Shown here: piece by piece, positions 4,134 through 60,243 of the stretch | How the letters are laid out: each line of letters begins with the position of its first letter | Position numbering within the stretch: the first letter of the stretch is position 1 | Assembly (NCBI GenBank): GCA_963965975.1 | Contig: OZ014425.1 | Location: forward strand, 5,159,501-5,223,500 | Length of the DNA: 64,000 nucleotides | Direction: 5' to 3' | DNA from: Xestospongia bergquistia | Lineage: Eukaryota > Porifera > Demospongiae > Haplosclerida > Petrosiidae | Translations under genes and position numbers: made by a program | The notes under the pieces: generated by a model | The model's input: the letters and a program-made list of their open reading frames with translations, nothing else | Databases searched by the model: none | What the model was told of the DNA's origin: nothing

Positions 4134-4770
4134 ATATTATATTAAATTAATAAAATATTACATGATGTATTAAATTAATAAATTATTACATGTTGTATTA
4201 AATAAATGAAGTATTACATGTTGTATTAAATAAATGAAGTATTACATGTTGTATTAAATAAATAAAGTATTACATGTTGTATTAAATAAATAAATGAAGT
4301 ATTACATGTTGTATTAAATAAATAAATGAAGTATTACATGTTGTATTAAATGAATGAAGTATTACATGTTGTATTAAATAAATAAAGTATTACATGTTGT
4401 ATTAAATGAATGAAGTATTACATGTTGTATTAAATAAATAAAGTATTACATGTTGTATTAAATGAATGAAGTATTACATGTTGTATTAAATAAATAAAGT
4501 ATTACATGTTGTATTAAATGAATGAAGTATTACATGTTGTATTAAATAAATAAAGTATTACATGTTGTATTAAATGAATGAAGTATTACATGTTGTATTA
4601 AATAAATGAAGTATTACATGTTGTATTAAATAAATAAAGTATTACATGTTGTATTAAATGAATGAAGTATTACATGTTGTATTAAATAAATGAAGTATTA
4701 CATGTTGTATTAAATAAATAAAGTATTACATGTTGTATTAAATAAATGAAGTATTACATGTTGTATTAAA
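4134..4770. repeat. 28-bp AT-rich minisatellite between TRMU and GPCR gene 1
   Basis: About 22 head-to-tail units of tattaaataaataaagtatt plus acatgttg, 28 bp each, with 32-bp variants carrying an extra ataa and alternating aaataaat/aaatgaat forms that hint at a higher-order period. The duplicate of this junction near gene 7 (38.22-38.28 kb) has only about one unit, so the array expanded at this site or shrank in the other copy. The stop codon of GPCR gene 1 lies inside the last unit, so the expansion replaced the original end of that receptor's tail. Confidence 0.92.
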
Positions 4771-7700
4771 TAGATATGATTACTGTTCCTTCATTTTTTA
4801 ATACTAGAGAATATTCCATATTCTCTATATCATTGTTATTAGTTGTATTATCTGGTATGAATTTTTCAATTTTCAATGTAGATTTTTCTATAATATCAGC
4901 TGTACTCTCTAATAATAAACAATGGATCAATAGTTATATAATGGATATATACCATCAAATGTTCCAAGAGTATATTGTCCATAGATATTACCAGTAGGAA
5001 CTGGTCTTGCACTATTTTTACGAGTAACCTGTAAACAAGTAAATGTCATGATGTCATTATGACATCATTGTAACTTACTGATGTCCGCATTAAAGTTGTT
5101 TTAGTGAAAGATAGTTTACTGAGAAATTGATAGTTATTTTGTTTGTTATGCCACCATCTTGAGTAAACCTCTCTTACCTGTATATGTGTGTGTATGTGTG
5201 ACATTTATCTACTAGTAGTAATAAATAGATACTTACATGTTTAGATAGAGGGACATAAAGTATGAAGATAATAATACCTTGACCAGCAATAAAGACTGTC
5301 ATTATATATGCAATGAACAGTAATTTATCAGTAAAGAAAAGGACATTAGCTAGCCATCCTATACCCATCACTATAGTAAGTGATATAGATGCTTTCAACC
5401 AATATCTAATAAATAACAATATTAAGTTATAAATTGTAATATATCTTACTTAATATTATCAACTTTAGTTTTATTCAGTTGTGTTTTTTGATGTCTTCTC
5501 ATTATAACAATAGACATGATGAAGAACCCAATATTGACCTGATAATGGAACATTACATTTGTCTATCCATCCATCCATTCATTAAACTTACTAGTAGTAT
5601 TAAGATAACTGGTATAATAAATGACCATATAAATCCACTCTCATAATTTAACCAACATCTATAAAATATTTATTATCATTAAATAATTATATAACTACTA
5701 TTACTAACGCAACCAGTTTGTCATTCTCGTATAACAAGTAATGGCTGTGGTTTTCATCAGTACCAACAAGATATCCAATAGGTACTATAATTAACATATA
5801 TACTCCAGGAATACCTGAATACAATAATAGTTAGAACTAATAAATTAATTAATATAATTACAGACCATAACTCAATAGTGTAAAACACATTATGTAACGT
5901 TTAGGATGTTTAATGAAAACCCTAACAAGAGCAACATATAAGACCACACCCTCCATTAACATCCACATAAATGTCACTAGAAACATGTACTGCAGTACTA
6001 CAGCTATTGATGAACACGCATACTAAATGACAGTAACAATCACATGACTACATACCCAATACTTGGTTTGTTCAATACCCACTACAAATAGAAGTTGTCC
6101 TATCAATAAATTACTACATAACATAACATGAATATAGTTCCTCATACTCCACAGTGATCTATGGACATATATACTATCACTGATATATGTGTGTGTATCT
6201 TACCTCATACAAAGATAGGTCAATATTGTCAGTAACATACATATCATAGAGATAGGTAATAACACAACTCCTATAGTTTGAAGGATCTTACGATCTTTAT
6301 CACTAACCTATAAAATAGACAGTTATATATACAGACATACTCACAGACATACTGGTACTCCTGGACTAAGTAGAATAGCAAAGTGTGTTAGATGATCACA
6401 TTGACATCTTACTGTTGAACCCTCTTGACTAATAAGACTACACCCATTAGTGCTCCACTCACCACTTGGTAATCTTATATCAGATCTAATAGGAGATATA
6501 ATACACTCAATATATTATTGATAGAATTATGTACAATTTAAACTGCCAATATACACAAGATAAATTATCACTACTTGATATCTGTGGAGAGGAAGAAGAG
6601 ATATGGTTGCTATGACAACTGAGTATGTCTTGTTATACCTGTTGACTAGACAAGTTAAACAAGATGTTAACTGGTGTAGTCAGATCTGTTATAGAACAGT
6701 CTGTACAATTAGTAGAAGAGAGAACTGGAGATATGATAGATTGGTTAGGATCTTCAGGAGGTAACCATCTTGATAAATTTTGGTAGTAAAATGAAGCTAT
6801 TTTAACTGGTAGATTATCAAATATATCAGGAGGTAATGTAATAGAATTATTATTAACAGATATTGCTTGAATTGGACCAGTTACAGTTGTAATCTCTTTA
6901 ACAGTAAATGCTATATATACAAGAGAGACATAGAGTATACAACTAATATATATATATATATACCTACCAATAGTATCTCCTATCATCTGTAGTCCTGTAG
7001 TATTATAGAGATATAGTGCAAATAGATCTAATGTTAGGAGGAGTTCACTACCAATAGATCGCCTCTTATCCTACATTTAGTAACATAATTAATATGTTGT
7101 TTTTTTAGTAAATTTCTGATTTACCATGTTATTAGAAATACTTTCATCAAATAATATATCAATGGTCAATTTTTTAAAACACTGTAAATATTTTAAATTT
7201 TATTACTCACATATGTTTCATACCTCAGTGAAATTAATTGAAACAGGATCTTGTGACTGGTTTAACTGGTTATTAACAATAGTAGAAAATAAGAAAATAG
7301 TTTGATCAACTGTTATATCTTCATTATTTTCATAACATAATATTTTCAAAGCTGTTATAGAAGAACTATTGATCTGTGTATGTAATAGAATGAGAGATGA
7401 TATTACAAATTATATTAGTACTATACTTTTGATAATATAGTATTAAATTGTTTACTAGTAAAACAATAAATACTATCATCCCAGTTACCATCTTGTTTAC
7501 ATAGTCTGGTACCTGTTAGAGAGGATTATAATGTAAGGAGAAGTTATCATTTACCATTAACAGTTCCTTTATAACAGTAAAAACCAGTGACATTATGACC
7601 TGGTAGTGTCTCTGGCCATATACCATCAGTAGAACAAGTTATAGGAGTTGGAGATGGAGTAGATATAATGTTTGTACTTGTCTGACTGGTTATACTTGTT

Positions 7701-9225
7701 TCAGTAATACTGGTCATACTAGATTTGCTAGTAAAACAATAAATACTATCATCCCAGTTACCATCTTGTTTACATAGTCTGGTACCTGTTAGAGAGGATT
7801 ATAATGTAAGGAGAAGTTATCACTTACCATTAACAGTTCCTTTATAACAGTAAAAACCAGTGACATTATGACCTGGTAGTGTCTCTGGCCATATACCATC
7901 AGTAGAACAAGTTATAGGAGTTGGAGATGGAGTAGATATAATGTTTGTACTTGTCTGACTGGTTATACTTGTTTCAGTAATACTGGTCATACTAGATTTG
8001 CTAGTAAAACAATAAATACTATCATCCCAGTTACCATCTTGTTTACATAGTCTGGTACCTGTTAGAGAGGATTATAATGTAAGGAGAAGTTATCATTTAC
8101 CATTAACAGTTCCTTTATAACAGTAAAAACCAGTGACATTATGACCTGGTAGTGTCTCTGGCCATATACCATCAGTAGAACAAGTTATAGGAGTTGGAGA
8201 TGGAGTAGATATAATGTTTGTACTTGTCTGACTGGTTATACTTGTTTCAGTAATACTGGTCATACTAGATTTGCTAGTAAAACAATAAATACTATCATCC
8301 CAGTTACCATCTTGTTTACATAGTCTGGTACCTGTTAGAGAGGATTATAATGTAAGGAGAAGTTATCATTTACCATTAACAGTTCCTTTATAACAGTAAA
8401 AACCAGTGACATTATGACCTGGTAGTGTCTCTGGCCATATACCATCAGTAGAACAAGTTATAGGAGTTGGAGATGGAGTAGATATAATGTTTGTACTCCT
8501 CATACTGGTTATACTTGTTTCAGTGGATAACTTACTGGTCAGACTGGTTTTCATTGATTTTATTGTTGTTTTGTCATTACTGATTGTAAATGTTTCAGTT
8601 GGTATAATAATCAAATGTGAAGTATATGTTACACTGTTTGTTATGAAAGAGCTGGTTATACTAGTTATACTAGAACTGCTTGGGGTTATAACAGTGCTAG
8701 TAAAACTAGTCACACCAGAACTTGTTGCGTCAATGGTCATTACAGAACAGTTTGTCAGTAATACTGAATTGTGGCCAGCTAAATAATATCTATCAGATTG
8801 TAGTCCTTTAATTCTACCATGAGAAAAGTATGTTTCTTCAAGTGGTAGGTTAGCTATAATTGTGTCATTAATATAGAGAATGACATTATTAATTGACCAA
8901 GAGCAGCAAGTTGAAGGAGAATACCACTGAAAATATACAATATCATTATTTGGAAGATCTAGTTGGTAATTTATTTCATTATGGGGAGACAAATAATAGT
9001 AGGTAAGAAAATCGACATTATTAATGATATGATGCAAAGCAACGACGATGTGAAATTTACAATAGATATTGTTAGTGCAGTTTTCAAGAGCTAAGCTAAA
9101 CTTTAGCTCGCTATTAAAGAAAAACACGTTATAGTAAAGTATATAGAGAAAGTATTATTGTCTTACTTATTTCCATTAGTGCTGGTTGTAACAGAAAATA
9201 GATATAAGATCACTGTTAAGATCAT
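4766..9225 (-). CDS. Adhesion GPCR gene 1, with four tandem HRM domains
   Basis: The ATG at 9225 opens a signal peptide (MILTVILYLFSVTTS) on exon 9167-9225. Exon 2 starts at 9110 with ELKFSLALENC and carries an ectodomain with the pattern FQW, CSWSINNVIL, which fits the end of a Reelin-like subrepeat. A short Thr/Ser stalk leads to HRM. The HRM exon pair is present four times (7455-8500), each in phase and joined by the linker SSMTSITETSITSQTSTN. GAIN and GPS (about 6360-6990), then 7TM (about 5236-6330), follow. A GAIN exon unlike those of the other genes (KKLTIDILFDESISNN) is used. The tail exons are 4953-5028 and 4766-4908; the last ends inside the minisatellite with EGTVIISI. The receptor appears intact. 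Confidence 0.85.
7455..8500 (-). repeat. 273-bp tandem repeat quadruplicating the HRM exon pair
   Basis: Four near-identical units begin at 7455, 7728, 8001 and 8274, an exact period of 273 bp. The last merges into the exon 2 stalk. Each unit holds, on the minus strand, the HRM second-half exon fused in frame to a Thr/Ser linker and the next HRM first-half exon, plus the short intron that splits HRM (donor after TVNG, acceptor before TRLC). Reading frame and splice phase are kept across all units. Only a rare substitution was seen between units (for example in the intron donor near 7830), so the duplication is very recent or homogenised. Confidence 0.92.
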
Positions 9226-9531: not shown

Positions 9532-12500
9532 TTATAAAAAATGTTCATTGCCTTTATTAGGATCAGTAGATTTTTCTAAAATATCAGCTGTACTCTCTAA
9601 TAATAAACAATGGATCAATAGTTATATAATGGATATATACCATCAAATGTTCCAAGAGTATATTGTCCATAGATATTACCAGTAGGAACTGATCCTACAC
9701 CATTTTTACCACTAACCTGTAAATGAGTAAATGTCATGATGTCATTATGACATCATTGTAACTTACTGATGTCTGTGATTTACTGAAAGATAATTTCATT
9801 TTACTGAGAAATTGATTACGCCACCATCTTGAGTAAGCCTCTCTTACCTGTATATGTGTGTGCAACATTTATCTACTACTAGTAATAATAGATACTTACA
9901 TGTTTAGATAGAGGGACATAAAGTATGAAGATAATAATACCTTGACCAGCAATAAAGACTGTCATTATATATGAAATGAACAGTAATTTATCAGTAAAGA
10001 AAAGAACATTAGCTAGCCATCCTATACCCATCACTATAGTAAGTGATATAGATGACTTCAACCAATATCTAATAAATAATAATATTAAGTTATAAATTGT
10101 AATATATCTTACTTAATATTATCAACTTTAGTTTTATTCAGTTGTGTCTTTTGATGTCTTCTCATTATAACAATAGACATGATGAAGAACCCAATATTGA
10201 CCTGATAATGGAACATTACATTTGTCTATCCATCCATTCATCCATTAAACTTACTAGTAGTATTAAGATAACTGGTATAATAAATGACCATATAAATCCA
10301 CTCTCATAATTTAACCAACATCTATAAAATATTTATTATCATTAAATAATTATATAACTACTATTACTAACACAACCAGTTTGTCATTCTCGTATAACAA
10401 GTAATGGCTGTGGTTTTCATCAGTACCAACAAGATATCCAATAGGTACTATAATTAACATATATACTCCAGGAATACCTGAATACAATAATAGTTAGAAC
10501 TAATAAATTAATTAATATAATTAACATACTGTAACTCAATAGTGTAAAACACATTATGTAACGTTTAGGATGTTTAATGAAAACCCTAACAAGAGCAACA
10601 TATAAGACCACACCCTCCATTAACATCCACATAAATGTCACTAGAAACATGTACTGCAGTACTACAGCTATTGATGAACACACATACTAAATGGCAGTAA
10701 CAATCACATGACAGTCACATGACTACATACCCAATACTTGGTTTGTTCAATACCCACTACAAATAGAAGTTGTCCTATCAATAAATTACTACATAACATA
10801 ACATGAATATAGTTCCTCATACTCCACAGTGATCTATGGACATATATACTATCACTGATATATATGTGTGTGTATCTTACCTCATACAAAGATAGGTCAA
10901 TATTGTCAGTAACATACATATCATAGAGATAGGTAATAACACAACTCCTATAGTTTGAAGGATCTTACGATCTTTATCACTAACCTATAAAATAGACAGT
11001 TATATATACAGACATACTCACAGACATACTGGTACTCCTGGACTAAGTAGAATAGCAAAGTGTGTTAGATGATCACATTGACATCTTACTGTTGAACCCT
11101 CTTGACTAATAAGACTACACCCATTAGTCTTCCACTCACCACTTGGTAATCTTATATCAGATCTAATAGGAGATATAATACACTCAATATATTATTGATA
11201 GGATTATGTACAATTTAAACTGCCAATATACACAAGATATATTATCACTACTTGATATCTGTGTAGAAGAAGAAGAGATATGGTTGCAATGACAACTGAG
11301 TATGTCTTGTTATACCTGTTGACTAGACAAGTTAAACAAGATGTTAACTGGTGTAGTCAGATCTGTTATAGAACAGTCTGTACAATTAGTAGAAGAGAGA
11401 ACTGGAGATATGATAGATTGGTTAGGATCATCAGGAGGTAACCATCTTGATAAATTTTGGTAGTAAAATGAAGCTATTTTAACTGGTAGATTATCAAATA
11501 TATCAGGAGGTAATGTAATAGAATTATTATTAACAGATATTGCTTGAATTGGACCAGTTAGTGTTGTAATCTCTTTAACAGTAAATGCTATATATACAAG
11601 AGAGACATAGAGTATACAACTAATATATATATATATATACCTACCAATAGTATCTCCTATCATCTGTAGTCCTGTAGTATTATAGAGGTATAGTGCAAAT
11701 AGATCTAATGTTAGGAGGAGTTGACTACCAATAGATCGCCTCTTATCCTGTAATTAGTAATGTAATTATTAATGATGTAATTATGAGTCATGTAATTGTG
11801 CTATGTAAACAATAGACCTTACCTTGTCATCAGGAACATTCTCATTGGTTAGTAAGTCATTGATCACATCTTTAAAATACTGCAATAATCCAATATATCA
11901 TACAGACATCAATATTATGATTGTAGATACCTTAGTGAAATTAATTGAAACAGGTTCTGGTGACTGGATTAACTGGTTATTAACAATAGTAGACAATAAG
12001 AAAATAGTTTGATCAACTGTTATATCTTCATTATTTTCACTTAATATTTTCAAAGCTGTTATAGAAGAACTATTGATCTGTGTACGTAATAGAATGAGAG
12101 ATGATATTACAAATTATATTAGTACTATACTTTTGATAATATAGTATTAAATTGTTTACTAGTAAAACAATAAATACTATCATCCCAGTTACCATCTTGT
12201 TTACATAGTCTGGTACCTGTTAGAGAGGATTATAATGTAAGGAGAAGTTATCATTTACCATTAACAGTTCCTTTATAACAGTAAAAACCAATGACATTAT
12301 GACCTGGTAGTGTCTCTGGCCATATACCATCAGTAGAACAAGTTATAGGAGTTAGAGATGGAGCTTGGGAAGAAGCTGGCGAGCTGTGTATGATTTGAGA
12401 AGATACTAATGGAGAGATGAGTATTGTTTGAGAAGATGCTGATGGAGAGATGAGTGTGGTTTGAGAATATACTGATTGAGAGATGAGTACTGTTTGAGAA

Positions 12501-12746
12501 GATGCTGATGGAGAGATGAATACTGTTTGAGAAGAAGGTGATGGAGAGCTCAGTATGGTTTGAGAAGACACTGATGGAGAGATGAAGGCAGGTGAAGATT
12601 GACCATTGACTCTATCAACACTAGAGTATTATAATACATTTACAATTAAACAAATTAGGTATACATAAAGCTAGTACTCACCTTTGTACATTTCTAACAA
12701 AAGTTGAGGTAACAGAAAATAAAGACAGAACTATTATTGCCAGCAT
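9532..12746 (-). CDS. Adhesion GPCR gene 2, minimal ectodomain
   Basis: Exon 1 (12682-12746) encodes the signal peptide MLAIIVLSLFSVTSTF. Exon 2 (12259-12620) goes directly into a Ser/Pro/Gln-rich stalk of imperfect 11-residue repeats (SPSASSQTVLI type) and then the first HRM half. The second half is 12131-12216. There is no Reelin-like domain, making this the shortest ectodomain in the array. GAIN uses the FKDVINDLLTNENVPDD exon type. GPS is at about 11040-11160 with CQCDHLTHFAIL intact. The 7TM exons lie at about 9897-10985. The tail ends ILEKSTDPNKGNEHFL at 9532. Its upstream region, including the original start context, is duplicated upstream of gene 4. Confidence 0.85.
12370..12590 (-). 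repeat. 33-bp coding repeats in the gene 2 stalk
   Basis: About six imperfect units encode 11 residues each around the motif SSQTVLISPSA. They form the whole extracellular stalk of gene 2 and differ in composition from the Thr/Glu-rich stalks of genes 3, 6 and 8, so stalk repeats arose independently in different copies. Confidence 0.8.
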
Positions 12747-13068: not shown

Positions 13069-16000
13069 TTAATTTAAAACAGGGCTGTTTTCTTTCTCTT
13101 TTTGTACTTCCTCCACATCATTTGATGATTCATTCCCAATATTATATATTATGAGATCAGTAGATTTTTCTAAAATATCTGCGGTACTCTCTATTAATAA
13201 ACAATGGATCAATAGTTATATAATGGATATATACCATCAAATGTTCCAAGAGTATATTGTCCATAGATATTACCAGTAGGAACTGATCCCATACCATTTT
13301 TACCATTAACCTGTAAATGAGTAAATGTTATAATGTCATTATGACATCATTGTAACTTACTGATGTCCGCATTAAAGTTGATTTAGTGAAAGACAATTTA
13401 CTGAGAAATTGATAGTTATTTTGTTTGTTATGCCACCATCTTGAGTAAGCCTCTCTTACCTGTATATGTGTGTGTGTGTGTGACATTTATCTACTACTAG
13501 TAATAAATAGATACTTACATGTTTAGATAGAGGGACATAAAGTATGAAGATAATAATACCTTGACCAGCAATAAAGACTGTCATTATATATGAAATGAAC
13601 AGTAATTTGTCAGTAAAGAAAAGAACATTAGCTAGCCATCCTATACCCATCACTATAGTAAGTGATATAGATGCTTTCAACCAATGTCTGCAGGAAAATA
13701 TAAACACACAACATTATAATGTAATACATCTTACTTGATATTATCAACTTTAGTTTTATGATGCTGTCTATTTTGATGTCTTCTCATTATAACAATAGAC
13801 ATGATGAAGAACCCAATATTGACCTGATAATGGAACATTACATTTGTCTCTCCATCCATTCATTAAACTTACTAGTAGTATTAAGATAACTGGTATAATA
13901 AATGACCATATAAATCCACTCTCATAATTTAACCAACATCTATAAAATATTTATTATCATTAAATAATTATATAACTATTATTACTAACGCAACCAGTTT
14001 GTCATTCTCGTATAACAAGTAATGGCTGTGGTTTTCATCAGTACCAATAAGATATCCAATAGGTACTATAATTAACATATATACTCCAGGAATACCTGAA
14101 TACAATAATAGTTAGAACTAATAAATTAATTAATATAATTAACATACCATAACTCAATAGTGTAAAACACATTATGTAACGTTTAGGATGTTTAATGAAA
14201 ACCCTAACAAGAGCAACATATAAGACCACACCCTCCATTAACATCCACATAAATGTCACTAGAAACATGTACTGCAGTACTACAGCTATTGATGAACACA
14301 CATACTAAATGACAGTAACAATCACATGACAATCACATTACTACATACCCAATACTTGGTTTGTTCAATACCCACTACAAATAGAAGTTGTCCTATCAAT
14401 AAATTACTACATAACATAACATGAATATAGTTCCTCATACTCCACAGTGATCTATGGACATATATACTATCACTGATATATATGTGTGTGTATCTTACCT
14501 CATACAAAGATAGGTCAATATTGTCAGTAACATACATATCATAGAGATAGGTAATAACACAACTCCTATAGTTTGAAGGATCTTACGATCTTTATCACTA
14601 ACCTATAAAATAGACAGTTATATATACAGACATACTCACAGACATACTGGTACTCCTGGACTAAGTAGAATAGCAAAGTGTGTTAGATGATCACATTGAC
14701 ATCTTATTGTTGAACCCTCTTGACTAATAAGACTACACCCATTAGTGCTCCACTCACCACTTGGTAATCTTATATTAGATCTAATAGGAGATATAATACA
14801 CTCAATATATTATTGATATAATTATGTACAATTTAAACTGCCAATATACACAAGATAAATTATCACTACTTGATATCTGTGTAGAGGAAGAAGAGATATG
14901 GTTGCTATGACAACTGAGTATGTCTTGTTATACCTGTTGACTAGACAAGTTAAACAAGATGTTAACTGGTGTAGTCAGATCTGTTATAGAACAGTCTGTA
15001 CAATTAGTGGAAGAGAGAACTGGAGATATGATAGATTGGTTAGGATCATCAGGAGGTAACCATCTTGATAAATTTTGGAAGTAAAATGAAGCTATTTTAA
15101 CTGGTAGATTATCAAATATATCAGGAGGTAATGTAATAGAATTATTATTAACAGATATTGCTTCAATTGGACCAGTTAGTGTTGTAATCTCTTTAACAGT
15201 AAATGCTATATATACAAGAGAGACATAAGAGTATACAACTAATATATATATATATATATACCTACCAATAGTATCTCCTATCATCTGTAGTCCTGTAGTA
15301 TTATAGAGATATAGTGCAAATAGATCTAATGTTAGGAGGAGTTGACTACCAATAAATCGCCTCTTATCCTGTAATTAGTAATGTAATTATTAATGATGTA
15401 ATTATGAGTCATGTAATTGGTGCTATGTAAACAATAGATCTTACCTTGTCATCAGGAACATTCTCATTGGTTAGTAAGTCATTGATTACATTATTAAAAT
15501 ACTGCAATAATCCAATATATTGTATGATATCAATATTATGATTGTAGATACCTTAGTGAAATTAATTGAAACAGGTTCTGGTGACTGGATTAACTGGTTA
15601 TTAATAATAGTAGACAATAAGAAAATAGTTTCATCAACTGTTATATCTTCATTATTTTCATTTAATATTTTCAAAGCTGTTATAGAAGAACTATTGATCT
15701 GTTTATGTAATAGAATGAGAGATGATATTACAAATTATATTAGTACTATACTTTTGATAATATAGTATTAAATTGTTTACTAGTAAAACAATAAATACTA
15801 TCATCCCAGTTACCATCTTGTTTACACAGTCTGGTACCTGTTAGAAAGGATTATAATGTAAGGAGAAGTTATCATTTACCATTAACAGTTCCTTTATAAC
15901 AGTAAAAACCAGTGGCATTATGACCTGGTAGTGTCTCTGGCCATATACCATCAGTAGAACAAGTTATAGGACTTGGAGATGGTGTAGATATAATTGTAAT

Positions 16001-17482
16001 ACTGGTCATACTGGTTATACTTGCTTCAGTTGGCATAATAGTGGTTTCAGTGGGTATGATACTGGGCAGACTGGTTTCAGTGGGTTTGATACTGGTCAGA
16101 CTGGTTTCAGTGGGTTTGATACTGGTCAGACTGGTTTCAGTGGGTACAATACTGGGCAGACTTGTTTCAGTATCTATGATACTGGTCAGACTGGTTTCAG
16201 TGGGTTTGATACTGGTTAGACTGGTTTCAGTGGGTACGGTACTGGTTAGACTGGTTTTAGTGGGTACGGTACTGGTCAGACTGGTTTCAGTATGTATGAC
16301 ACTAGTCAGACTGGTTTCAGTGTGTATGATACTGGTCAGACTGGTTTCAGTGGGTATGATACTGGGCAGACTGGTTTCAGTGTGTATGATACTGGGCAGA
16401 TTGGTTTCAGTGAGTACAATACTGGGCAGACTGGTTTCAGTATGTATGATACTGGGCAGACTGGTTTCAGTGTGTTTGATACTGGTTAGACTGGTTTCAG
16501 TGGGTTTGATACTGGTTAGACTGGTTTCAGTGGGTATGATACTGGTCAGACTGGTTTCAGTGGGTATGATACTGGTCAGACTGGTTTCAGTGTGTATGAT
16601 ACTGGTCAGATTGGTTTCAGTGGGTACAATACTGGGCAGACTGGTTTCAGTATGTATGATACTAGTCAGACTGGTTTCAGTGTGTATGATACTGGTCAGA
16701 CTGGTTTCAGTGGGTTTGATACTGGTCAGACTGGTTTCAGTTGGTATGATACTGGTCAGACTGATCATACTTGTTTCAGTGGATATTCTACAGATCATAA
16801 TTGTTTCAGTGGATATTCTACAGTTCATAATTGTTTCAGTTGATGTTACAATAGAATGTGTACAGGAGATGTTAGCACTCATTGTAGCAGGCACTGAATG
16901 GCATGAGACTGCTTCATCATCACAATTTCCATTATTTATGTTAAACTCTGAAGACATCAGTGGATTGTCCCTCCCAAAACGAAACCAATACTCTCCATTA
17001 CATATTGTGTAGACATCAATTTGTGGATAGAGTTTTACATCATGACAACATATTTTATTGTTCTTGAATATAACCATTTTAACATTACTTACTGACCAAA
17101 AACAATTTGTTGCATTCGTAGACTCTTTACTGTTCCAGCTAAATGTTATTTTGTCACCATTATGTCTTGTTAATGAGTAATTATAGTATCCACCTAATTA
17201 ACAATCATATTATTATTTAATATAATATATATTGTATGTACCATATAATCGAGTCATCATCTCTGAATAACTAAATTCAACAAATGGAGTACTTAAATTG
17301 TTTTCACATTTTATTACCAAGTCAAATCTTAGTTGTCTAAAGCGAGAGAAATACAATAAGTTATTAATACTATACAAAACGAGTTACATTTCAACTTCGT
17401 TGTTGTTGCCAGGTCCTTTATCATTTCCAGTTGACGGATAAAGAAGAGACAAGAGATAGAGACACAGTACAGCAGGAAACAT
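13069..17482 (-). CDS. Adhesion GPCR gene 3, long Thr-rich stalk
   Basis: The ATG at 17482 begins signal peptide MFPAVLCLYLLSLLYPSTG. The ectodomain exons read LRFDLVIKCENN, then ITFSWNSKES, FWSVSNVKMVIF, again the F-x-W, W-S-x-N-N pattern seen in the other copies, so a divergent member of the same domain is inferred. Cysteine-containing sequence (YTICNGEYWFRFGRD) precedes a stalk of about 24 ten-residue repeats (TETSLTSIIP type), then HRM with Asn-Ala in place of Asn-Val (PGHNATGF). GAIN (FNNVINDLLTNENVPDD type), GPS (about 14650-14780) and 7TM (about 13520-14600) are complete. The tail ends VEEVQKEKENSPVLN, matching gene 5 and not gene 2. A fragment of the FBXL13-like gene lies just upstream. 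Confidence 0.85.
16045..16790 (-). repeat. 30-bp coding minisatellite of the gene 3 stalk
   Basis: About 24 units of cagtgggtttgatactggtc plus agactggttt, exactly 30 bp with no length variants over most of the run, so the ten-residue period T-E-T-S-L-T-S-I-x-x is kept. Variation is concentrated at the last two codons (IP, KP, IH, VP). The product is a threonine/serine-rich segment expected to be heavily O-glycosylated and extended. Confidence 0.93.
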
Positions 17483-34825: not shown

Positions 34826-34916
34826 TGTGCTATCAATAAATTACTACATAACATAACATGAATATAGTTCCTCATACTCCACAGTGATCTATGGACATAT
34901 ATACTATCACTGATAT

Positions 34917-38230: not shown

Positions 38231-38321
38231 TTAAATTAATAAAATATTACATGATGTAATAAAGTTGAAATAAAACAGTTGAAGTATATTATATCAAACA
38301 TAATTAACATAATACAGTATA

Positions 38322-38786: not shown

Positions 38787-38842
<56 letters not shown>

Positions 38843-45492: not shown

Positions 45493-48400
45493 TTAATATT
45501 TAATGACTTTTGGAGTGATTGTTGTAAATGAAGATATTATCTCAGCCCCTTCATTAGTGTATGAAAATGAAAGTTCAATTTCTTTTCCTTGATCATCATT
45601 ATTGAATGTAAATTCCTCTAATGAATCTTGATCATCATCATTCAATGTAGATTTCTCTAATGTATCTTGATCATCATCATTCAATGTAGATTTCTCTAAT
45701 GTATCTTGATCATCATCATTCAATGTAGATTTCTCTAATGTATCAACTGTACTCTCTAATAATAAACAATGGATCAATAGTTATATAATGGATATATACC
45801 ATCAAATGTTCCAAGAGTATATTGTCCATAGATATTACCAGTAGGAACTGATCCTATACTATTTTTACCATTAACCTGTAAATGAGTAAATGTCATAATG
45901 TCATTATGACATCATTGTAACTTACTGATGTCTGGATTAAAGTTGATTTGGTCAAAGATAGTTTACTGAGAAATTGATAGTTATTTTGTTTGTTATGCCA
46001 CCATCTTGAGTAAACCTCTCTTACCTGTACATGTGTGTGTGTGTGTGACATTTATCTACACTTTAAAAACTGATTAGTTGATTTAACAATATATTGTTAT
46101 ATAGATTGTATTATGCCAACTGTTTACAAGATGTTAGAACTAAAAATGATATTTTTGAAAATAAAAATATTTGTTTAATAGTTAAATACACAAGAATTAG
46201 TAATCCAAATTGTATTTGGTTTACTTTCAGTTTACATCATATTATCAATATAACTATATATATCATATATATATATATATTATATAACTATATATGATAT
46301 AACAATATATTGGTTAAATCAACTATCAGTTTTTAGAGTGGATCACTATTAATAATAAATAGATACTTACATGTTTAGATAGAGGGACATAAAGTATGAA
46401 GATAATAATACCTTGACCAGCAATAAAGACTGTCATTATATATGAAATGAACAGTAATTTATCAGTAAAGAAAAGAACATTAGCTAGCCATCCTATACCC
46501 ATCACTATAGTAAGTGATATAGATGACTTCAACCAATATCTAACAAATAATAATATTAAGTTATAAATTGTAATATATCTTACTTAATATTATCAACTTT
46601 AGATTTATGTTGTTGTGATTTTTGATGTCTTCTCATTATAACAATAGACATGATGAAGAACCCAATATTGACCTGATAATGGAACATTACATTTGTCTCT
46701 CCATCCATTCATCCATTAAACTTACTAGTAGTATTAAGATAACTGGTATAATAAATGACCATATAAATCTACTCTCATAATTTAACCAACATCTATAAAA
46801 TGTTTATTATTATTAAATAATTATATAACTACTATTACTAACGCAACCAGTTTGTCATTCTCGTATAACAAGTAATGGCTGTGGTTTACATCAGTACCAA
46901 CAAGATATCCAATAGGTACTATAATTAACATATATACTCCAGGAATACCTGAATACAATAATAGTTAGAACTAATAAATTAATTAATATAATTAACATAC
47001 CATAACTCAATAGTGTAAAACACATTATGTAACGTTTAGGATGTTTAATGAAAACCCTAACAAGAGCAACATATAAGACCACACCCTCCATTAACATCCA
47101 CATAAATGTCACTAGAAACATGTACTGCAGTACTATAGCTATTGATGAACACACATGCTAAATGATAGCAACAATCACATGACAGTCACATGACTACATA
47201 CCCAATACTTGGTTTGTTCAATACCCACTACAAATAGAAGTTGTCCTATCAATAAATTACTACATAACATAACATGAATATAGTTCCTCATACTCCACAG
47301 TGATCTATGGACATATATACTATCACTGATATATATGTGTGTGTATCTTACTTCATACAAAGATAGGTCAATATTGTCAGTAACATACATATCATAGAGA
47401 TAGGTAATAACACAACTCCTATAGTTTGAAGGATCTTACGATCTTTATCACTAACCTATAAAATGGACAGTTATATATACAGACATACTCACAGACATAC
47501 TGGTACTCCTGGACTAAGTAGAATAGCAAAGTGTGTTAGATGATCACATTGACATCTTACTGTTGAACCCTCTTGACTAATAAGACTACACCCATTAGTC
47601 TTCCACTCACCACTTGGTAATCTAATATCAGATCTAATAGGAGATATAATACACTCAATATATTATTGATAGAATTATGTACAATTTAAACTGCCAATAT
47701 ACACAAGATATATTATCACTACTTGATATCTGTGTAGAGGAAGAAGAGATAAGGAAAGGTTGCTATGACAACTGAGTATGTCTTGTTATACCTGTTGACT
47801 AGGCAAGTTAAACAAGATGTTAACTGGTATAGTCAGATCTGTTATAGAACAGTCTGTACAATTAGTAGAAGAGAGAACTGGAGATATGATAGATTGGTTA
47901 GGATCTTCAGGAGGTAACCATCTTAATAAATTTTGGTAGTAAAATGAAGCTATTTTAACTGGTAGATTATCAAATATATCAGGAGGTAATGTAATAGAAT
48001 TATTATTAACAGATATTGCTTCAATTGGACCAGTTAGAGTTGTAATCTCTTTAACAGTAAATGCTATATATACAAGAGAGACATAGAGTATACAACTAAT
48101 ATATATATATATATATATACCTACCAATAGTATCTCCTATCATCTGTAGTCCTGTAGTATTATAGAGATATAGTGCAAATAGATCTAATGTTTGGAGGAG
48201 TTGACTACCAATAGATCGCCTCTTATCCTGTAATTAGTAATGTAATTATTATTAATTAATGATATATTTACCTCATTATTAGGAATGGTCTTGTTTGTCA
48301 GTATATTATTAATAACATTATTAAAATTCTATAATAATATAATAAATTGTAATTAATTATAACAGGATATTGTAGATACCTTAGTGAAATTAATTGAAAC

Positions 48401-51365
48401 AAGTTCTGGTGACTGGATTAACTGGTTATTAATAATAGTAGACAATAAGAAAATAGTTTCATCAACTGTTATATCTTCATTATTTTCATTTAATATTTTC
48501 AAAGCCGTTATAGAAGAACTATTGATCTGTGTATGTAATAGAATGAGAGATGATATTACAAATTATATTAGTACTATACTTTTGATAATATAGTATTAAA
48601 TTGTTTACTAGTAAAACAATAAATACTATCATCCCAGTTACCATCTTGTTTACATAGTCTGGTACCTGTTAGAGAGGATTATAATATAAGGAGAAGTTAT
48701 CATTTACCATTAACAGTTCCTTTATAACAGTAAAAACCAGTGACATTATGACCTGGTAGTGTCTCTGGCCATATACCATCAGTAGAACAAGTTATAGGAC
48801 TTGGAGATGGTGCAGATATGATGTTTGTACTCCTCATACTGGTCATACTTGTTTCAGTAATACTGGTCATACTGGATTTGCTTGTTTCAGTGGATGTCAT
48901 GTCTGAACTGGTTAGAATGGTCATACTAGAACTGATTGTTATATCAGAACTGGCTAAACTGGTTTCAGTATGTAAAGTACTGCTTGTACTAGAGTTGATA
49001 GTTTCAGTGGACGTTATATCAACTGTGTTAAGACTGGTCATACTAGAACTGATTGTTATATCAGAACTGGTTAAACTGGTTTCAGTAGGTAAAGTACTGC
49101 TTGTACTAGAGTCGATAGTTTCAGTGGACGTTATATCAACCATGTTAAGACTGGTCATACTAGAACTGATTGTTATATCAGAACTGGTTAAACTGGTTTC
49201 AGTAGGTAAAGTACTGCTTGTACTAGAGTCGATAGTTTCAGTGGACGTTATATCAACTGTGTTAAGACTGGTCATACTAGAACTGATTGTTATATCAGAA
49301 CTGGTTAAACTGGTTTCAGTAGGTAAAGTACTGCTTGTACTAGAGTCGATAGTTTCAGTGAACGTTATATCAACCATGTTAAGACTGGTCATACTAGAAC
49401 TGATTGTTATATCAGAACTGGTTAAACTGGTTTCAGTAGGTAAAGTACTGCTTGTACTAGAGTCGATAGTTTCAGTGAACATTATATCAACCATGTTAAG
49501 ACTGGTCATACTAGAACTGATTGTTATATCAGAACTGGTTAAACTGGTTTCAGTAGGTAAAGTACTGCTTGTACTAGAGTCGATAGTTTCAGTGAACGTT
49601 ATATCAACCATGTTAAGACTGGTCATACTAAAACTGATTGTTATATCAGAACTGGTTAAACTGGTTTCAGTAGGTAAAGTACTGCTTGTACTAGAGTCGA
49701 TAGTTTCAGTGGACGTTATATCAACCATGTTAAGACTGGTCATACTAGAACTGATTGTTATATCAGAACTGGTTAAACTGGTTTCAGTTGGTAAAGTACT
49801 GCTTGTAATAGAGTCGATAGTTTCAGTGGACGTTATATCAACCATGTTAAGACTGGTCATACTAGAACTGATTGTTATATCAGAACTGGTTAAACTGGTT
49901 TCAGTAGGTAAAGTACTGCTTGTACTAGAGTCAATATTTTCGGTGGATGTTATATCAGTTGTGGTCAGATCAGTTATACTTGTTTCACTCATTGTAATAC
50001 TGGTCATACTGGTTATACTTGTTACTGAGGGTTCAATACTAGAGGTTGTTACATTAGTTGATGATATGTCACAATGATAGGAGAGAGAAAGATTAGCACT
50101 ACGTGGTAATGACCCATTTCCATTATCAAATATCAATGTACTCTTATTAGTATATAATGATTGGGATATATTCCCATTATAAAGACTCCAAGATCTACAA
50201 AGAGATATTATAACATAATATAAAGAGATAGTACTCACTCATTCTTATAACATAACTCATATTGTTCCAATGTTATATTGACTTGACTAAGACTCCAGAT
50301 ATCTTTATTAATAGTATAGTTCTCTTGTATCCAACTCAATGAGAATTCACTGATATTATTATTAAGACATGTTGTAATTAATGTATTCTGACTACTACTA
50401 GGAGAGTAGATTGGAACATTATATAAACTACTACCATTAAAATAAGACCAGTATTTGTTACCCACTGGTACAAAATATGCCAAAGGTGATGAGGTATCTT
50501 CAGTATGTAGAGAGAGAAGGATAACATTAGGTGATGTATCAGTACATGGACTAGGTCCAATGAATTGAGTTAATTGAAGTAAGAAACTTATAATTCTGAG
50601 AAGAAAGCAATATATTCTATTTATTGATATATAAAGACATTACTTACATTATATTGTCATTATTATTACAAATATTCTCTTTATAAGTAGTAGGTGAAGA
50701 TGATAGAGTAACAGGTGTAATAACTTGAAGATCTAACATTGGGGATGTTGCTTGACGACTTCCTATATGTTTATTATTGTTACTTGCTACTTCTTTATAG
50801 TCAGGATCACTAGTAAAATAAAGACATCCATTTGAACTATCACATTCACTAGAGTTAAATGAGATAGTTGAATTAACAAGATCCCAACCAGGGAGTTCCT
50901 CATTATTAAAGTCTTGTTGGTATATTTGTCGATAACATCCATTGTGTTGTAGAGATATACTGATGTTGTCTAATGCCCACACATCACAATTAGTACGAGG
51001 TGCTCTGTACGTCTGATTCCATGCAAAACGTACTGTTTGATTTAACAGTAGATCATTGTTAATAGTAATGTTATAAAGATATGGTCCAACAGCTGATGAG
51101 GCAGTAAATGGGACAGTATATGTAGTAGTATCATTATATGTTAAATTAAGGAATGATGAGTTAATGGAGGTCACTGTGGGAATATTTTTCGTATTATAAT
51201 TATCTTCTGTTCCATGTACATAATAGAAATGAAGTGGAACAACTGTAGTATTGTCTATTAATGCTTTAATGAGAACACCTTCATTTGGTACTTTCAATAT
51301 ATAACACAATGACTGATTATGAGGTGGGTCTGTATAGTTAAGAACTAGTGAGAATTTTAAGTCAC

Positions 51366-51406
<41 letters not shown>

Positions 51407-51511
51407 ATCAGTATTTTATCAGTACTAGTATTTGACTTACATTTCAATATCTTCAGCTTCAGTTGGCAAATAAAGAAGAAACAAGATACAGAGACACACA
51501 GCAGTAAACAT
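45493..51511 (-). CDS. Adhesion GPCR gene 8, repetitive stalk and repetitive tail
   Basis: ATG at 51511, signal peptide with the same pattern as gene 7 (MFTAVCLCILFLLYLPTE). Two Reelin-like segments (VRFAWNQ, VWALDNISI; DFNNEELPGWDLVNST). The stalk exon (48700-50238) has nine 39-residue Ser/Thr repeats like those of gene 6 but mostly with ISSSMTSLNMV, so each gene's repeats have homogenised separately. HRM, GAIN (NILTNKTIPNNE type), GPS (WKTNGC) and 7TM (about 46368-47470) are complete. The cytoplasmic tail contains three copies of a 13-residue acidic repeat (DTLEKSTLNDDDQ) and ends TITPKVIKY. Confidence 0.87.
45598..45745 (-). repeat. 39-bp coding repeat in the gene 8 cytoplasmic tail
   Basis: Three nearly perfect units plus one diverged unit encode DTLEKSTLNDDDQ. 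Gene 9 has two units (the second diverged), gene 5 has one extra, and gene 6 one. Each repeat has a Thr/Ser and four or five acidic residues. Confidence 0.92.
46066..46335. mobile_element. MITE in the post-TM7 intron of gene 8
   Basis: Same element and same insertion site as in gene 7 (left end ctgattagttgatttaacaa, right end ttggttaaatcaactatcag), about 270 bp, with an internal (TA)n run. Shared position shows inheritance by gene duplication. Confidence 0.85.
48940..49945 (-). repeat. 117-bp coding repeats of the gene 8 stalk
   Basis: Nine units of 117 bp (39 residues), homologous to those of gene 6. Diagnostic differences (ISSS for ISFS, SLNMV for SLNTV, DITF variants) are shared among units of this gene. 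Confidence 0.92.
51365..51404. repeat. (AG)n microsatellite forming a splice-site polypyrimidine tract
   Basis: On the coding strand this is a (CT)n run that ends at the acceptor of the first ectodomain exon of gene 8. The same site is (CT)n of different length in genes 6, 7 and 9. Confidence 0.9.
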
Positions 51512-52772: not shown

Positions 52773-55700
52773 TTAATATTCAATGAATTTTGGAATGATC
52801 GTTGTAAATGAAGATATTATCTCCTCTCCTTCATTAGTGTATGATAATGAAAGTTCAATTTCTTTTCCTTGATCATCATTCAATCTAGATTTCTCTAATG
52901 TATCTTGATCATCGTCATTCAATGTAGATTTCTCTAATGTATCAGCTGTACTCTCTAATAATAAACAATGGATCAATAGTTATATAATGGATATATACCA
53001 TCAAATGTTCCAAGAGTATATTGTCCATAGATATTACCAGTAGGAACTGATCCCACACCATTTTTACTACTAACCTGTAAACAAGTAAATGTCATGATGT
53101 CATTATGACATCATTGTAACTTACTGATGTCCACATTAAAGTTGTTTTAGTGAAAGATAGTTTACTGAGAAATTGATAGTTATTTTGTTTGTTATGCCAC
53201 CATCTTGAGTAAACCTCTCTTACCTGTATATATGTGTATGTTTGTATGCATTTATGACATCTACCCATACATATCACTGTATAAATTGATTGATTGATGT
53301 AACCAATATATGTTATATATAGATTGTATTATGTAGAAATTGTTTATGCAAACTGAAAACTATTACTTACATGTTTAGATAGAGGGACATAAAGTATGAA
53401 GATAATAATACCTTGACCAGCAATAAAGACTGTCATTATATATGAAATGAACAGTAATTTATCAGTAAAGAAAAGAACATTAGCTAGCCATCCTATACCC
53501 ATCACTATAGTAAGTGATATAGATGACTTCAACCAATATCTAACAAATAACAATATTAAGTTATAAATTGTAATATATCTTACTTAATATTATCAACTTT
53601 AGTTTTATGTTGTTGTGATTTTTGATGTCTTCTCATTATAACAATAGACATGATGAAGAACCCAATATTGACCTGATAATGGAACATTACATTTGTCTCT
53701 CCATCCATCCATCCATTTAAACTTACTAGTAGTATTAAGATAACTGGTATAATAAATGACCATATAAATCTACTCTCATAATTTAACCAACATCTATAAA
53801 ATATTTATTATCATTAAATAATTATATAACTACTATTACTAACGCAACCAATTTGTAATTCTCGTATAACAAGTAATGGCTGTGGTTTTCATCAGTACCA
53901 ACAAGATATCCAATAGGTACTATAATTAACATATATACTCCAGGAATACCTGAATACAATAATAGTTAGAACTAATAAATTAATTAATATAATTAACATA
54001 CCATAACTCAATAGTGTAAAACACATTATGTAACGTTTAGGATGTTTAATGAAAACCCTAACAAGAGCAACATATAAGACCACACCCTCCATTAACATCC
54101 ACATAAATGTCACTAGAAACATGTACTGCAGTACTACAGCTATTGATGAACACACATACTAAATGACAGTAACAATCACATGACAGTCACATGACTACAT
54201 ACCCAATACTTGGTTTGTTCAATACCTACTACAAATAGAAGTTGTCCTATCAATAAATTACTACATAACATAACATGAATATAGTTCCTCATACTCCACA
54301 GTGATCTATGGACATATATACTATCACTGATATATATGTGTGTGTATCTTACCTCATACAAAGATAGGTCAATATTGTCAGTAACATACACATCATAGAG
54401 ATAGGTAATAACACAACTCCTATAGTTTGAAGGATTTTACGATCTTTATCACTAACCTATAAAATGGACAGTTATATATACAGACATACTCACAGACATA
54501 CTGGTACTCCTGGACTAAGTAGAATAGCAAAGTGTGTTAGATGATCACATTGACATCTTATTGTTGAACCCTCTTGACTAATAAGACTACACCCATTAAT
54601 GTTCCACTCACCACTTGGTAATCTTATATTAGATCTAATAGGAGATATAACACACTCAATATATTATTGATAGAATTATATACAATTTAAACTGCCAATA
54701 TACACAAGATATATTATCACTACTTGATATCTGTGTAGAGGAAGAAGAGATATGGTTGCTATGACAACTGAGTATGTCTTCTTATACCTGTTGACTAGAC
54801 AAGTTAAAGAAGATGTTAACTGGTGTAGTCAGATCTGTTATAGAACAGTCTGTACAATTAGTAGAAGAGAGAACTGGAGATATGATAGATTGGTTAGGAT
54901 CATCAGGAGGTAACCATCTTGATAAATTTTGGTAATAAAATGAAGCTATTTTAACTGGTAGATTATCAAATATATCAGGAGGTAATGTAATAGAATTATT
55001 ATTAACAGATATTGCTTCAATTGGACCAGTAAGTGTTGTAATCTCTTTAACAGTAAATGCTATATATACAAGAGAGAGACATAGAGTATACAACTAATAT
55101 ATATAATATATATATATACCTACCAATAGTATCTCCTATCATCTGTAGTCCTGTAGTATTATAGAGATATAGTGCAAATAGATCTAATGTTAGGAGGAGT
55201 TGACTACCAATAGATCGCCTCTTATCCTGTAATTAATAATATAAATATTATTAATTAATTATAAATTTACCTCATTATTAGGAATGGTCTTGTTTGTCAG
55301 TATATTATTAATAACATTATTAAAATTCTATAATAATATAATAAATTGTAATTAATTATAACAGGATATTGTACATACCTCAGTGAAATTAATTGAAACA
55401 GGTTCTGGTGACTGGATTAACTGGTTATTAATAATAGTAGACAATAAGAAAATAGTTTCATCAATTGTTATATCTTCATTATTATCACTTAATATTTTCA
55501 AAGCTGTTATAGAAGAACTATTGATCTGTGTATGTAATATAATGAGAGATGATATTACAAATTATATTAGTACTATACTTTTGATAATATAGTATTAAAT
55601 TGTTTACTAGTAAAACAATAAATACTATCATCCCAGTTACCATCTTGTTTACATAGTCTGGTACCTGTTAGAGAGGATTATAATGTAAGGAGAAGTTATC

Positions 55701-57234
55701 ATTTACCATTAACAGTTCCTTTATAACAGTAAAAACCAGTGACATTATGACCTGGTAGTGTCTCTGGCCATATACCATCAGTAGAACAAGTTATAGGAGT
55801 TGGAGATGGAGTAGATATAATGTGTGTACTGGTCATACTGGTTATACTTGTTACTGAGGGTTCAATATTACAGGCTGCTACAGTAGTTGATGATATGTCA
55901 CAATGATAGGAGAGAGAAAGATTAGCACTACGTGGTAATGACCCATTTCCATTATCAAACATTAATGTACTCTTATTAGTACATAATGATTGGGATATAT
56001 TCCCATTATAAAGACTCCAAGATCTACAAAGATATATTATAACATAATATAAAGAGATACTACTCACTCATTCTTATAACATAACTCATATTGTTCCAAT
56101 GTTATATTGACTTGACTAAGACTCCAGATATCTTTATTAATAGTATAGTTCTCTTGTATCCAACTCAATGAGAATTCACTGATATTATTATTAAGACATG
56201 TTGTAATTAATGTATTCTGACTACTACTAGGAGAGTAGATTGGAACATTATATAAACTACTACCATTAAAATAAGACCAATATTTGTTACCCACTGGTAC
56301 AAAATATGCCAAAGGTGATGAGGTATCTTCAGTATGTAGAGAGAGAAGGATGACATTAGGTGATGTATCAGTACATGGACCAGGTCCAATGAATTGAGTT
56401 AATTGAAGTAAGAAACTTATAAATCTGAGAAGAAAGCAATATATTCTATTTATTGATATATAAAGACATTACTCACATTATATTGTCATTATTATTACAA
56501 ATATTCTCTTTATAAGTAGTAGGTGAAGATGATAGAGTAACAGGTGTAATAACTTGAAGATCTAACATTGGGGATGTCGCTTGACGACTTCCTATATGTC
56601 TATTACTAGGACTTGGTACTCCGTCATAATCAGGATCACTAATAAAATAAAGACATCCATTTGAACTATCACATTCATCAGAGTTAAATGAAATATTTGA
56701 GTTAACAAGATCCCAACCAGGGATTTCCTCATTATTAAAGTCTTGTTGATATATTTGTCGATAACATCCATTGTGTTGTAGAGATATACTGATGTTGTCT
56801 AATGCCCACACATCACAATAAGTATGATTTGCTCTGTATGTCTGATTCCATGCAAAACGTACTGTTTGATTTAACAGTAGATCATTGTTAATAGTAATGT
56901 TATAAAGATATGGTCCAACAGCTGATGAGGCAGTAAATGGGACAATATATGTAGTAGCATCATTATATGTTAAATTAAGGAATGATGAGTTAATGGAGTT
57001 CACTGTGGGAATACGCATTTTATTTTTAGGTGCTGTTCCATGTACATAATAGAAATGAAGTGGAACAACTGTAGTATTGTCTATTAATGCTTTAATGAGA
57101 ACACCTTCATTTTGTACATTCAGTGATGAACAATTGTCATCAATAAATATTTCTGTATAGTTAAGAACTAGTGAGAATTCTAAGTCACTAGAGAGAGAGA
57201 GGGGGGGGAGAGAGAGGGGGGGGGGAGAGAGAGA

Positions 57235-57270
<36 letters not shown>

Positions 57271-57371
57271 TCAGTATTATATCATTACTATTTGACTTAC
57301 ATTTCAACATCTTCAGCTTTAGTTGACAGATAAAGAAGAGACAAGATACAGAGACACACAGCAGTAAACAT
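52773..57371 (-). CDS. Adhesion GPCR gene 9, short stalk
   Basis: ATG at 57371, signal peptide MFTAVCLCILSLLYLSTK. Ectodomain as in genes 7-8 (DLEFSLVLNYTEIF; VRFAWNQTYRANHTYCDVWA; DFNNEEIPGWDLVNSN; SLSWIQENY). The stalk is only about 30 residues (SIEPSVTSITSMTSTHIIST) before CSTDGIWPETLPG. GAIN (NILTNKTIPNNE type), GPS (WNINGC, HLTHFAIL) and 7TM (about 53370-54480) are complete. The tail has two LEKS repeats and ends TTIIPKFIEY. The exon encoding FFNLSSQQ has Phe for Leu found elsewhere. It is the copy next to the single-copy FBXL13-like gene. Confidence 0.87.
53280..53358. mobile_element. Truncated MITE in gene 9
   Basis: About 80 bp in the post-TM7 intron, matching only the left part of the element in genes 7 and 8 (ttgattgattgatgtaacca, then tatagattgtattatg). 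The right end is deleted together with flanking intron. Confidence 0.75.
57184..57268. repeat. (AG)n/(G)n microsatellite at a 3' splice site
   Basis: Compound run of AG with two poly-G tracts (8-10 G). On the coding strand it is the pyrimidine tract of the first ectodomain exon of gene 9, the longest of the four homologous runs. Confidence 0.92.

Positions 57372-60190: not shown

Positions 60191-60243
<53 letters not shown>

Follow-up and report, generated by a model that had tools for sequence, protein, structure and literature searches.

A tandem array of nine predicted adhesion G-protein-coupled receptor genes with a near-constant signalling half and probable Reelin-type heads in the sponge Xestospongia bergquistia

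Results

Nine adhesion receptor genes fill one strand of the locus

We analyzed a stretch of 64,000 nucleotides from the sponge Xestospongia bergquistia (contig OZ014425.1, here C15, positions 5159501-5223500; assembly GCA_963965975.1, 146.5 Mb in 21 contigs), referred to as the window, in which positions are counted from the first letter. Nine stop-free genes for adhesion G-protein-coupled receptors (GPCRs), designated A, B, C, E, F, G, H, I and J in the order of transcription, fill positions 57371-4772 on the minus strand, gene A starting at 57371 and gene J ending at approximately 4772. An initial annotation made from the letters alone had claimed such an array, and its span, strand and gene number were confirmed by spliced models that are free of stops in all nine cases. 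Common to all nine genes are a signal peptide, a stalk rich in Ser/Thr or Ser/Pro that is nearly absent in gene C, an HRM-like domain, a GAIN domain with GPS, an agonist-like strand and a latrophilin-like seven-transmembrane (7TM) domain. The genes differ in their heads: a doubled Reelin-like ectodomain is present in A, B, C, E and F (5/9), a single, diverged copy in G, H and J (3/9), and none in I (1/9). The claim of Reelin-like ectodomains in all nine genes was thus too wide, although it holds in some form for eight of them.

Gene E (28510-34150, minus strand like all others) served as reference: its model, built by hand, comprises 21 exons and 1543 codons including the stop (1542 aa) in one open frame, and its introns of 42-77 nt are all of the GT-AG type. 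It is the only model that reaches a terminal stop codon; the other eight end at the last aligned codon, and their 3' ends are approximate. Genes A (52812-57371; 21 exons), B (45532-51511) and C (38367-43072; 21 exons) were modelled from signal peptide to tail by spliced protein-to-genome alignment, and none contains a stop. They share one architecture of signal peptide, doubled Reelin-like ectodomain, Ser/Thr-rich stalk, HRM-like domain, GAIN/GPS and 7TM, the stalk being short in A, built on a 117-bp minisatellite in B and almost absent in C. Spliced alignment also provided most of gene F and the part from HRM to tail of G, H, I and J, and the sequence itself supplied the missing 5' exons of these four genes and of F. 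Into the long stalks of B, E and F the aligner inserted a false intron; these stalks are single open exons, open over 512 aa in gene B.

Gene F (22620-28012; 1398 aa) carries an extra N-terminal module of about 178 residues (exons 28012-27233), followed by the doubled Reelin-like ectodomain, stalk, HRM-like domain, GAIN/GPS and 7TM; a Pfam scan of this module gave no match, and no second copy was found in this genome (next match at an E-value of 0.37). Gene G (18563-22029; 835 aa) has one diverged Reelin-like domain, gene H (13159-17482; 1108 aa) has one of a separate type on a stalk of 30-bp repeats, and gene J (4772-9225; 1139 aa) has one diverged Reelin-like domain followed by four HRM-like cassettes, GAIN/GPS and 7TM. 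In gene I (9544-12746; 750 aa), the signal peptide is followed by a Ser/Pro-rich stalk with 33-bp repeats and then by the HRM-like domain, GAIN/GPS and 7TM. Between C and E lies D, a degenerate fragment on the same strand (approximately 34796-35651) with the end of a GPS, TM1 and part of TM2; the remaining pieces of its spliced alignment were spurious exons, and only the BLAST-confirmed pieces were used. At least one further J-like gene lies to the left of the window, and its head is identical to that of J over 131 residues. Repeated cassette pieces were seen in this neighbour as well and were left uncounted.

The signalling half is that of an adhesion GPCR

Between HRM and tail, gene E matched the Pfam family 7tm_2 (PF00002) with an E-value of 6.3e-42 (144 bits, curated cut-off 20.6) and GPS (PF01825) with 7.1e-14 (52.5 bits, cut-off 22.5). 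The best match of this common half in the PDB was latrophilin-3 (5.6e-55), spanning both GAIN and 7TM, while the secretin receptor followed at 3.4e-13. The GPS, the 7TM and the motif CDHL|THFAILL, which combines the cleavage site with the agonist strand, are present in nine of nine models; in gene E, exons 10-11 (30081-30309) encode the GPS with the predicted cleavage HL|T and the putative tethered agonist THFAILL. The prediction that the nine genes encode adhesion GPCRs of family B2 with GAIN, GPS and 7TM, as proposed in the initial annotation, is therefore fully supported.

The HRM assignment needed a qualification. The domain directly before GAIN in the gene E model stayed below the Pfam cut-off for HRM (PF02793) when scanned alone (E-value 0.014; 16.2 versus 26.2 bits), and longer stretches gave no match. 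However, a profile of five HRM-like sequences from the array aligned with a profile of six Pfam-found HRMs of the same genome with an hhalign score of 20.9, which none of 150 column shuffles equalled. Because the comparison with HRMs of the same genome beats all shuffles, the HRM-like domain is, as judged by its profile, a diverged HRM. Gene J contains four such cassettes in tandem (7460-8473), detected by Tandem Repeats Finder (TRF), tblastn and the spliced model as a 273-bp unit with 99% matches, each with its own 42-nt intron; this region (7451-8524) would give a receptor with four HRM-like domains.

Related genes in the genome

At an E-value of 0.001, a GPS exon as query found 133 matches in the whole genome, 40 of which reached 65% identity or more over 34 residues or more. 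These 40 related GPS exons are distributed over C15 (11, nine of them in the window), C4 (27, one with internal stops), C14 (1) and C1 (1), in a genome with at least 163 matches to 7tm_2. The doubled ectodomain, used as query against the genome, matched 102 times when exons are counted singly. From 30 loci that were fetched, 28 distinct stop-free ectodomains were obtained, 19 on C4, seven on C15 (five in the window) and two on C2, and partial copies exist beyond these 30 loci. A 30-kb sample of the array on C4 contains five gene-like units in which ectodomain, HRM, GAIN, GPS and TM pieces keep their order and strand, in support of their linkage in one gene; by BLAST, every piece is present in the first unit only, and the other four are without some of them. 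The first C4 gene, near 2.124 Mb and thus on another chromosome, has the architecture of the array genes and contains no stop across the 1126 aligned residues of a 1127-residue query, with one GAIN intron read through by the aligner. Spliced alignment of the C14 locus near 3.446 Mb produced spurious exons, and again only BLAST-confirmed pieces were used.

The heads resemble Reelin subrepeats

In the doubled heads, unit 1 is encoded by exon 2 and unit 2 by exon 3 and the start of exon 4, with both units placed after the extra exons in gene F. Unit 1 of gene E (33335-34015) consists of a C-half with the motifs FSLVL..EGVLI..FAWNQ..WALDNISI followed by an N-half with DFNNG..GW..CLYF..RQATSPILDL, and the same order of halves recurs in unit 2 (32758-33282). 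The two exons singled out in the initial annotation correspond to exon 2 of gene E (33331-34010) and of gene F (26492-27250), and the motifs quoted there (FAWNQ, WALDNI and DFNN-GW-CLYF-RQAT) are present. The heads of G and J are one short unit of a common type. Gene H has a different unit type with relatives on C14 (one, 61%) and C4 (two, 36-37%), and the tip of gene I is formed by the Ser/Pro-rich stalk alone.

Among 24,736 Pfam models, Reelin_subrepeat-B was matched by all ten ectodomains scanned (best E-value 1e-5) and was the sole family matched by more than one of them. Further matches to this family were obtained with the gene E ectodomain (2.2e-4), one C4 ectodomain (9.7e-4) and three of three fragments of the unit-1 C-half (0.003-0.007). 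Matches to Suc_Porlyase_C, DUF6165, Bromo_MP, DUF6159, Ephrin_CRD and Sushi were weak and inconsistent and were rejected.

For profile comparisons by hhalign, eight Reelin subrepeats from PDB chains and 28 sequences of unit 1 were used. Three segments aligned: positions 101-134 of unit 1 with 114-146 of Reelin (score 35.8), 146-200 with 3-52 (22.5), and 15-35 with 66-86 (13.9). The maximum in 300 column shuffles was 22.2, so that the first two segments each exceed all 300; the third is weak (shuffle median 12.6). Unit 2 aligned with unit 1 at a score of 28.9, with 0/150 shuffles as good, and this match crosses the junction between C-half and N-half. The H head aligned with unit 1 (30.5, 1/150 shuffles as good), and the J head with H (24.2, 1/150) and with Reelin (18.1, 2/150). 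Negative controls were null, namely HRM versus Reelin (117/150), GAIN versus Reelin (22/150) and unit 1 versus HRM (94/150). These values supersede comparisons made without shuffle control, of single pieces with Reelin (P 2.8e-5, 0.0092, 0.13, 0.02 and 1.2e-4) and of C-halves from double heads with those from H-type heads (P 2.2e-5), all of which pointed in the same direction. MAFFT alignments of the G and J heads to the double heads were misplaced and were not used as evidence.

Several results weigh against Reelin-type heads on receptors. None of the Pfam scores given (16.5-21.6 bits) attains the curated cut-off of 27 (in the scan of ten ectodomains, a bit score was given for the first member alone, 21.6), and the best matched region spans only about 33 residues. 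The Reelin model was not matched by a stretch of the head in canonical order (2/2), by one J sequence or by three H-type sequences, so that the G/J and H types have no Reelin match in Pfam, and PF21471 had no match anywhere in the genome at an E-value of 0.001. Reelin was also absent from the results of direct PDB searches with the ectodomain, in which the only matches were designed repeat proteins, rejected as low-information. AlphaFold2 models of exon 2 of gene E (ten window sequences) and of the J exon (two sequences) reached a predicted local distance difference test score (pLDDT) of 29.8 and 33.8, respectively, which is too low to use. Not better than shuffles were unit 2 versus Reelin (11/150), H versus Reelin (59/150) and J versus unit 1 (27/150), and the N-half in G, H and J was recognized by eye only. 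Finally, two double ectodomains, L054 (C2:3036001-3043200, at 3.04 Mb) and L055 (C15:4567001-4574200, at 4.57 Mb), have no HRM-GAIN-7TM cassette within the 7 kb fetched for each, indicating that the head does not always sit on a receptor. They may perhaps represent a secreted or differently anchored version. Downstream of L055, open frames look fibrinogen-like by eye, and L054 is also followed by other open frames.

These results raise the question whether the array comprises ordinary adhesion GPCRs with an ectodomain of another jelly-roll or beta-sandwich family (MAM, BNR, carbohydrate-binding or lineage-specific), in which the likeness in FxWxQ..WALDN is convergent or superficial. The sub-threshold Pfam scores over a short region, the PDB searches without Reelin and the lack of a usable fold model are in line with this view. 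Against it stand the recurrence of Reelin_subrepeat-B alone among the ten members, the three separate segments that fit Reelin with one consistent circular register, two of them scoring above all shuffles, and the null HRM and GAIN controls, and we regard such a different family as unlikely. From the profile comparisons we conclude that unit 1 is distantly homologous to Reelin subrepeats, and unit 2 by extension. The G/J and H heads are likely Reelin-like as well, at a weaker level. The Reelin-like character proposed in the initial annotation thus stands as distant homology, with the profile of unit 1 beating 300 of 300 shuffles, and as a match to Reelin_subrepeat-B in all ten ectodomains, but not as an assignment above the Pfam cut-off nor as a Pfam match of the G/J and H types.

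The order of the halves points to a permuted subrepeat

The three segments shared by unit 1 and Reelin run in circularly permuted order. The initial annotation had spoken of a Reelin-like half-repeat, which is not the best description of exon 2, because this exon contains a C-half followed by an N-half and the same order is repeated in exon 3 and the start of exon 4. Alternatively, the boundaries could be ragged, with a C-terminal half-subrepeat first, one canonical subrepeat in the middle and an N-terminal half last. This arrangement draws on the observation that the stretch in canonical order, which begins midway through exon 2 and ends with exon 3, can be aligned to a complete Reelin subrepeat (20.8, equalled or beaten by 4/300 shuffles), but exon 2 on its own gives a higher score, with the halves permuted. 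In the single-head genes, a C-half motif (F-Q-W-Y..W-S-I-N-N-V or I-T-F-S-W-N..W-S-V-S-N-V) follows the signal peptide directly, and after it comes at most one N-half; with ragged boundaries, G, H and J would by their sequence be left without any complete domain. In addition, 26 of the 28 distinct double ectodomains have the signal-peptide exon immediately next to the C-half, the two exceptions being gene F, with its extra module in between, and L019, which lacks a credible signal exon. Since the single-head genes and the junctions to the signal exon favour permutation, ragged boundaries appear improbable, and we infer that the head unit is more likely a complete, circularly permuted Reelin subrepeat of the form [C-half][N-half] than a half-repeat.

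A homogeneous cassette adjoins variable heads

The cassette from HRM to 7TM, approximately 2.5-2.9 kb, is mostly 94-97% identical in DNA between gene E and each other gene, introns included; in the comparison of E with I, one cassette piece of 442 bp reaches 97.7%, and separate tail pieces of the cassette comparisons lie at 87-93%. Over the 36 gene pairs, mean identity from GPS to TM7 was 0.95-0.99 for exons and 0.93-1.00 for introns (introns of more than 900 nt excluded), in agreement with the nearly invariant GPS-7TM part noticed in the initial annotation, and no pair differs in the intron after TM1. Identity was less even in the GAIN exons (0.78-0.99) and the tail exons (0.90-0.96). Matches of 100% over 503-682 bp (E-F, H-I and I-J) were overlaps of the extracted segments and were ignored.

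The similarity to gene E begins 64 (G), 69 (H), 21 (I) and 96 (J) nt before the first cysteine codon of the HRM, in stalk-coding DNA of the same exon, and the switch point thus falls within 75 bases across the four genes. Upstream of it, blastn at 1e-5 found no match of at least 120 bp between the ectodomain DNA of E and that of G, H, I or J, except for the signal-peptide region of H: gene H is similar to E around the signal-peptide exon (82.7% over 133 bp), dissimilar thereafter and similar once more in the 3' cassette. The stalks themselves often carry minisatellites, as detected by TRF. Repeats of 117 bp occur in E (31454-32644, 10.2 copies, with an open frame coding for a Ser/Thr-rich, mucin-like sequence) and B (48914-49957, 8.9 copies), repeats of 30 bp in H (16042-16763, 24.1 copies) and repeats of 33 bp in I (12394-12585, 5.8 copies). 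Long open frames on the plus strand across two of the stalks (31322-32764 and 48752-50077) are probably not genes and are read as a by-product of stop-free repeat units with lengths divisible by three.

Ratios of replacement to silent substitutions (dN/dS; Nei-Gojobori method, own script) among A, B, C, E and F were 0.80 for unit 1, 0.35 for unit 2, 0.26 for HRM, 0.51 for GAIN, 0.66 for GPS-TM7 and 0.58 for the tail, values that derive from few changes. Against the C4 gene, they were 0.88 for unit 1, 0.48 for unit 2, 0.33 for GPS-TM7 and 0.51 for the tail, the first three values being taken as a sign of constraint. The start of unit 1 was the most variable part at silent as well as replacement sites (proportions pS 0.29 and pN 0.26 in the first analysis window).

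Near-identical cassettes, unlike heads and stalk minisatellites taken together would fit gene conversion together with unequal exchange in the stalk. It is doubtful that the pattern results from very recent whole-gene duplications only, with heads that differ by fast divergence and loss: the tandem arrangement, the identical heads of J and its left neighbour and the high dN/dS of unit 1 are in line with this, but not the lack of a blastn match of 120 bp or more to the E ectodomain in G, H, I and J, outside the signal region of H, next to a cassette of 94-98% identity, nor the narrow switch in these four genes and the renewed likeness of H to E at the signal-peptide exon.

Neighbouring and intergenic features

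Upstream of gene A, leucine-rich-repeat exons of another gene lie at 58700-62000 on the minus strand, one exon scoring over and one just under the Pfam cut-off for LRR_6. A FYVE zinc-finger gene follows on the plus strand from 62919 onward (Pfam, 6.5e-15). Between B and C (43750-44700, minus strand), short open frames resemble retroelement remains by eye; two of them were scanned and gave no Pfam match at 0.01. A 28-bp minisatellite with 22.5 copies was detected by TRF at the 3' end of gene J (4140-4776).

Discussion

The array probably represents a recently expanded cluster of adhesion GPCRs, predicted to be self-cleaving, in which a constant signalling half is combined with diversifying heads of the permuted Reelin-subrepeat type, so that many inputs would be connected to one output. 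In such receptors, the heads, predicted to be jelly-rolls, may bind extracellular ligands or ligands on neighbouring cells, which could be proteins or glycans of the matrix, of a neighbour or of a microbe. The mucin-like stalk with its variable length would set the distance of the head. Considering what is known of adhesion GPCRs in general, pulling or binding may free or expose the tethered agonist THFAILL, which would switch on the 7TM domain, and all members might feed into one common intracellular output. Gene duplication together with conversion and unequal crossing-over at the stalk repeats could explain how the heads diversify on a signalling half that stays constant.

A function of the heads in recognition is suggested by their diversity and by the fast evolution of the first unit. 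Taken further, the locus could be a variable/constant receptor system of an early animal, in which the stalks, coded by minisatellites, are the sites where one homogenized HRM-GAIN-7TM cassette recombines with interchangeable, fast-evolving heads of the permuted Reelin type. The resulting repertoire would recognize neighbours, self or microbes, with one G-protein output shared by all members. We offer this extended interpretation as a tentative possibility, with clearly less confidence than the expanded receptor cluster itself.

Among known receptors, the latrophilins (ADGRL; PDB 8jmt for ADGRL3) are similar to the array in the sequence of GAIN, GPS and 7TM, with the E-value for latrophilin-3 given above, and in the T-x-F-A agonist strand. 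Latrophilins also carry their HRM before GAIN, and their head is a lectin or olfactomedin domain. In contrast, the array combines Reelin-like heads with a minisatellite stalk and is a tandem array with a constant cassette.

Reelin is a secreted protein in which each repeat consists of subrepeat A, an EGF domain and subrepeat B. Its repeats (PDB 2ddu, 2e26, 3a7q, 7lyu and 6a48) share with the heads of the array the motif order LxF..C..VLL.Y...FRW.Q..WAIDNVYI and W..G..C..LYF..RQA.T..LDL, and the unit-1 profile aligns with them above all shuffles. Unlike in Reelin, no EGF was matched by Pfam in the ectodomain, the halves stand in the other order and are joined to a 7TM domain in the gene models, and the score is below the Pfam cut-off. 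If transcripts confirm this joining, Reelin-type domains would have had a second life as receptor heads in one animal lineage, outside secreted Reelin and in permuted order.

In sponges, 40 adhesion GPCRs were counted in Amphimedon, among them at least eight with an HRM, and an expansion of the family was noted (Krishnan et al. 2014, PMC4302439). For choanoflagellates and metazoans, a conserved HRM/GAIN/7TM module with shuffled N-terminal domains and an agonist consensus of TxFAVLM were described (PMC12716839), to which THFAILL in the array is close. HRM-bearing adhesion GPCRs of sponges and their expansion, as well as the shuffling of heads, are thus already known from these two sources. The open-access literature search found no paper joining Reelin domains with adhesion GPCRs, although absence there is no proof; one paper that came up concerns Dock1 in Schwann cells. 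The literature searched contained neither a head of Reelin type, nor its permuted order, nor a cassette that shares introns but differs in its heads. In the available text on Amphimedon, the words reelin and tandem are absent and no array with exchanged heads is described for its HRM-GAIN-7TM receptors (PMC4302439); reelin is likewise absent from the available text on choanoflagellate and metazoan shuffling (PMC12716839). Compared with the shuffling described there, the exchange proposed here would have occurred within one tandem array and recently enough to leave near-identical introns. If true, the array would constitute a clean natural experiment in the swapping of adhesion GPCR heads on a fixed signalling half, and the exchange of heads at the stalk repeats could be tested by sequencing individuals.

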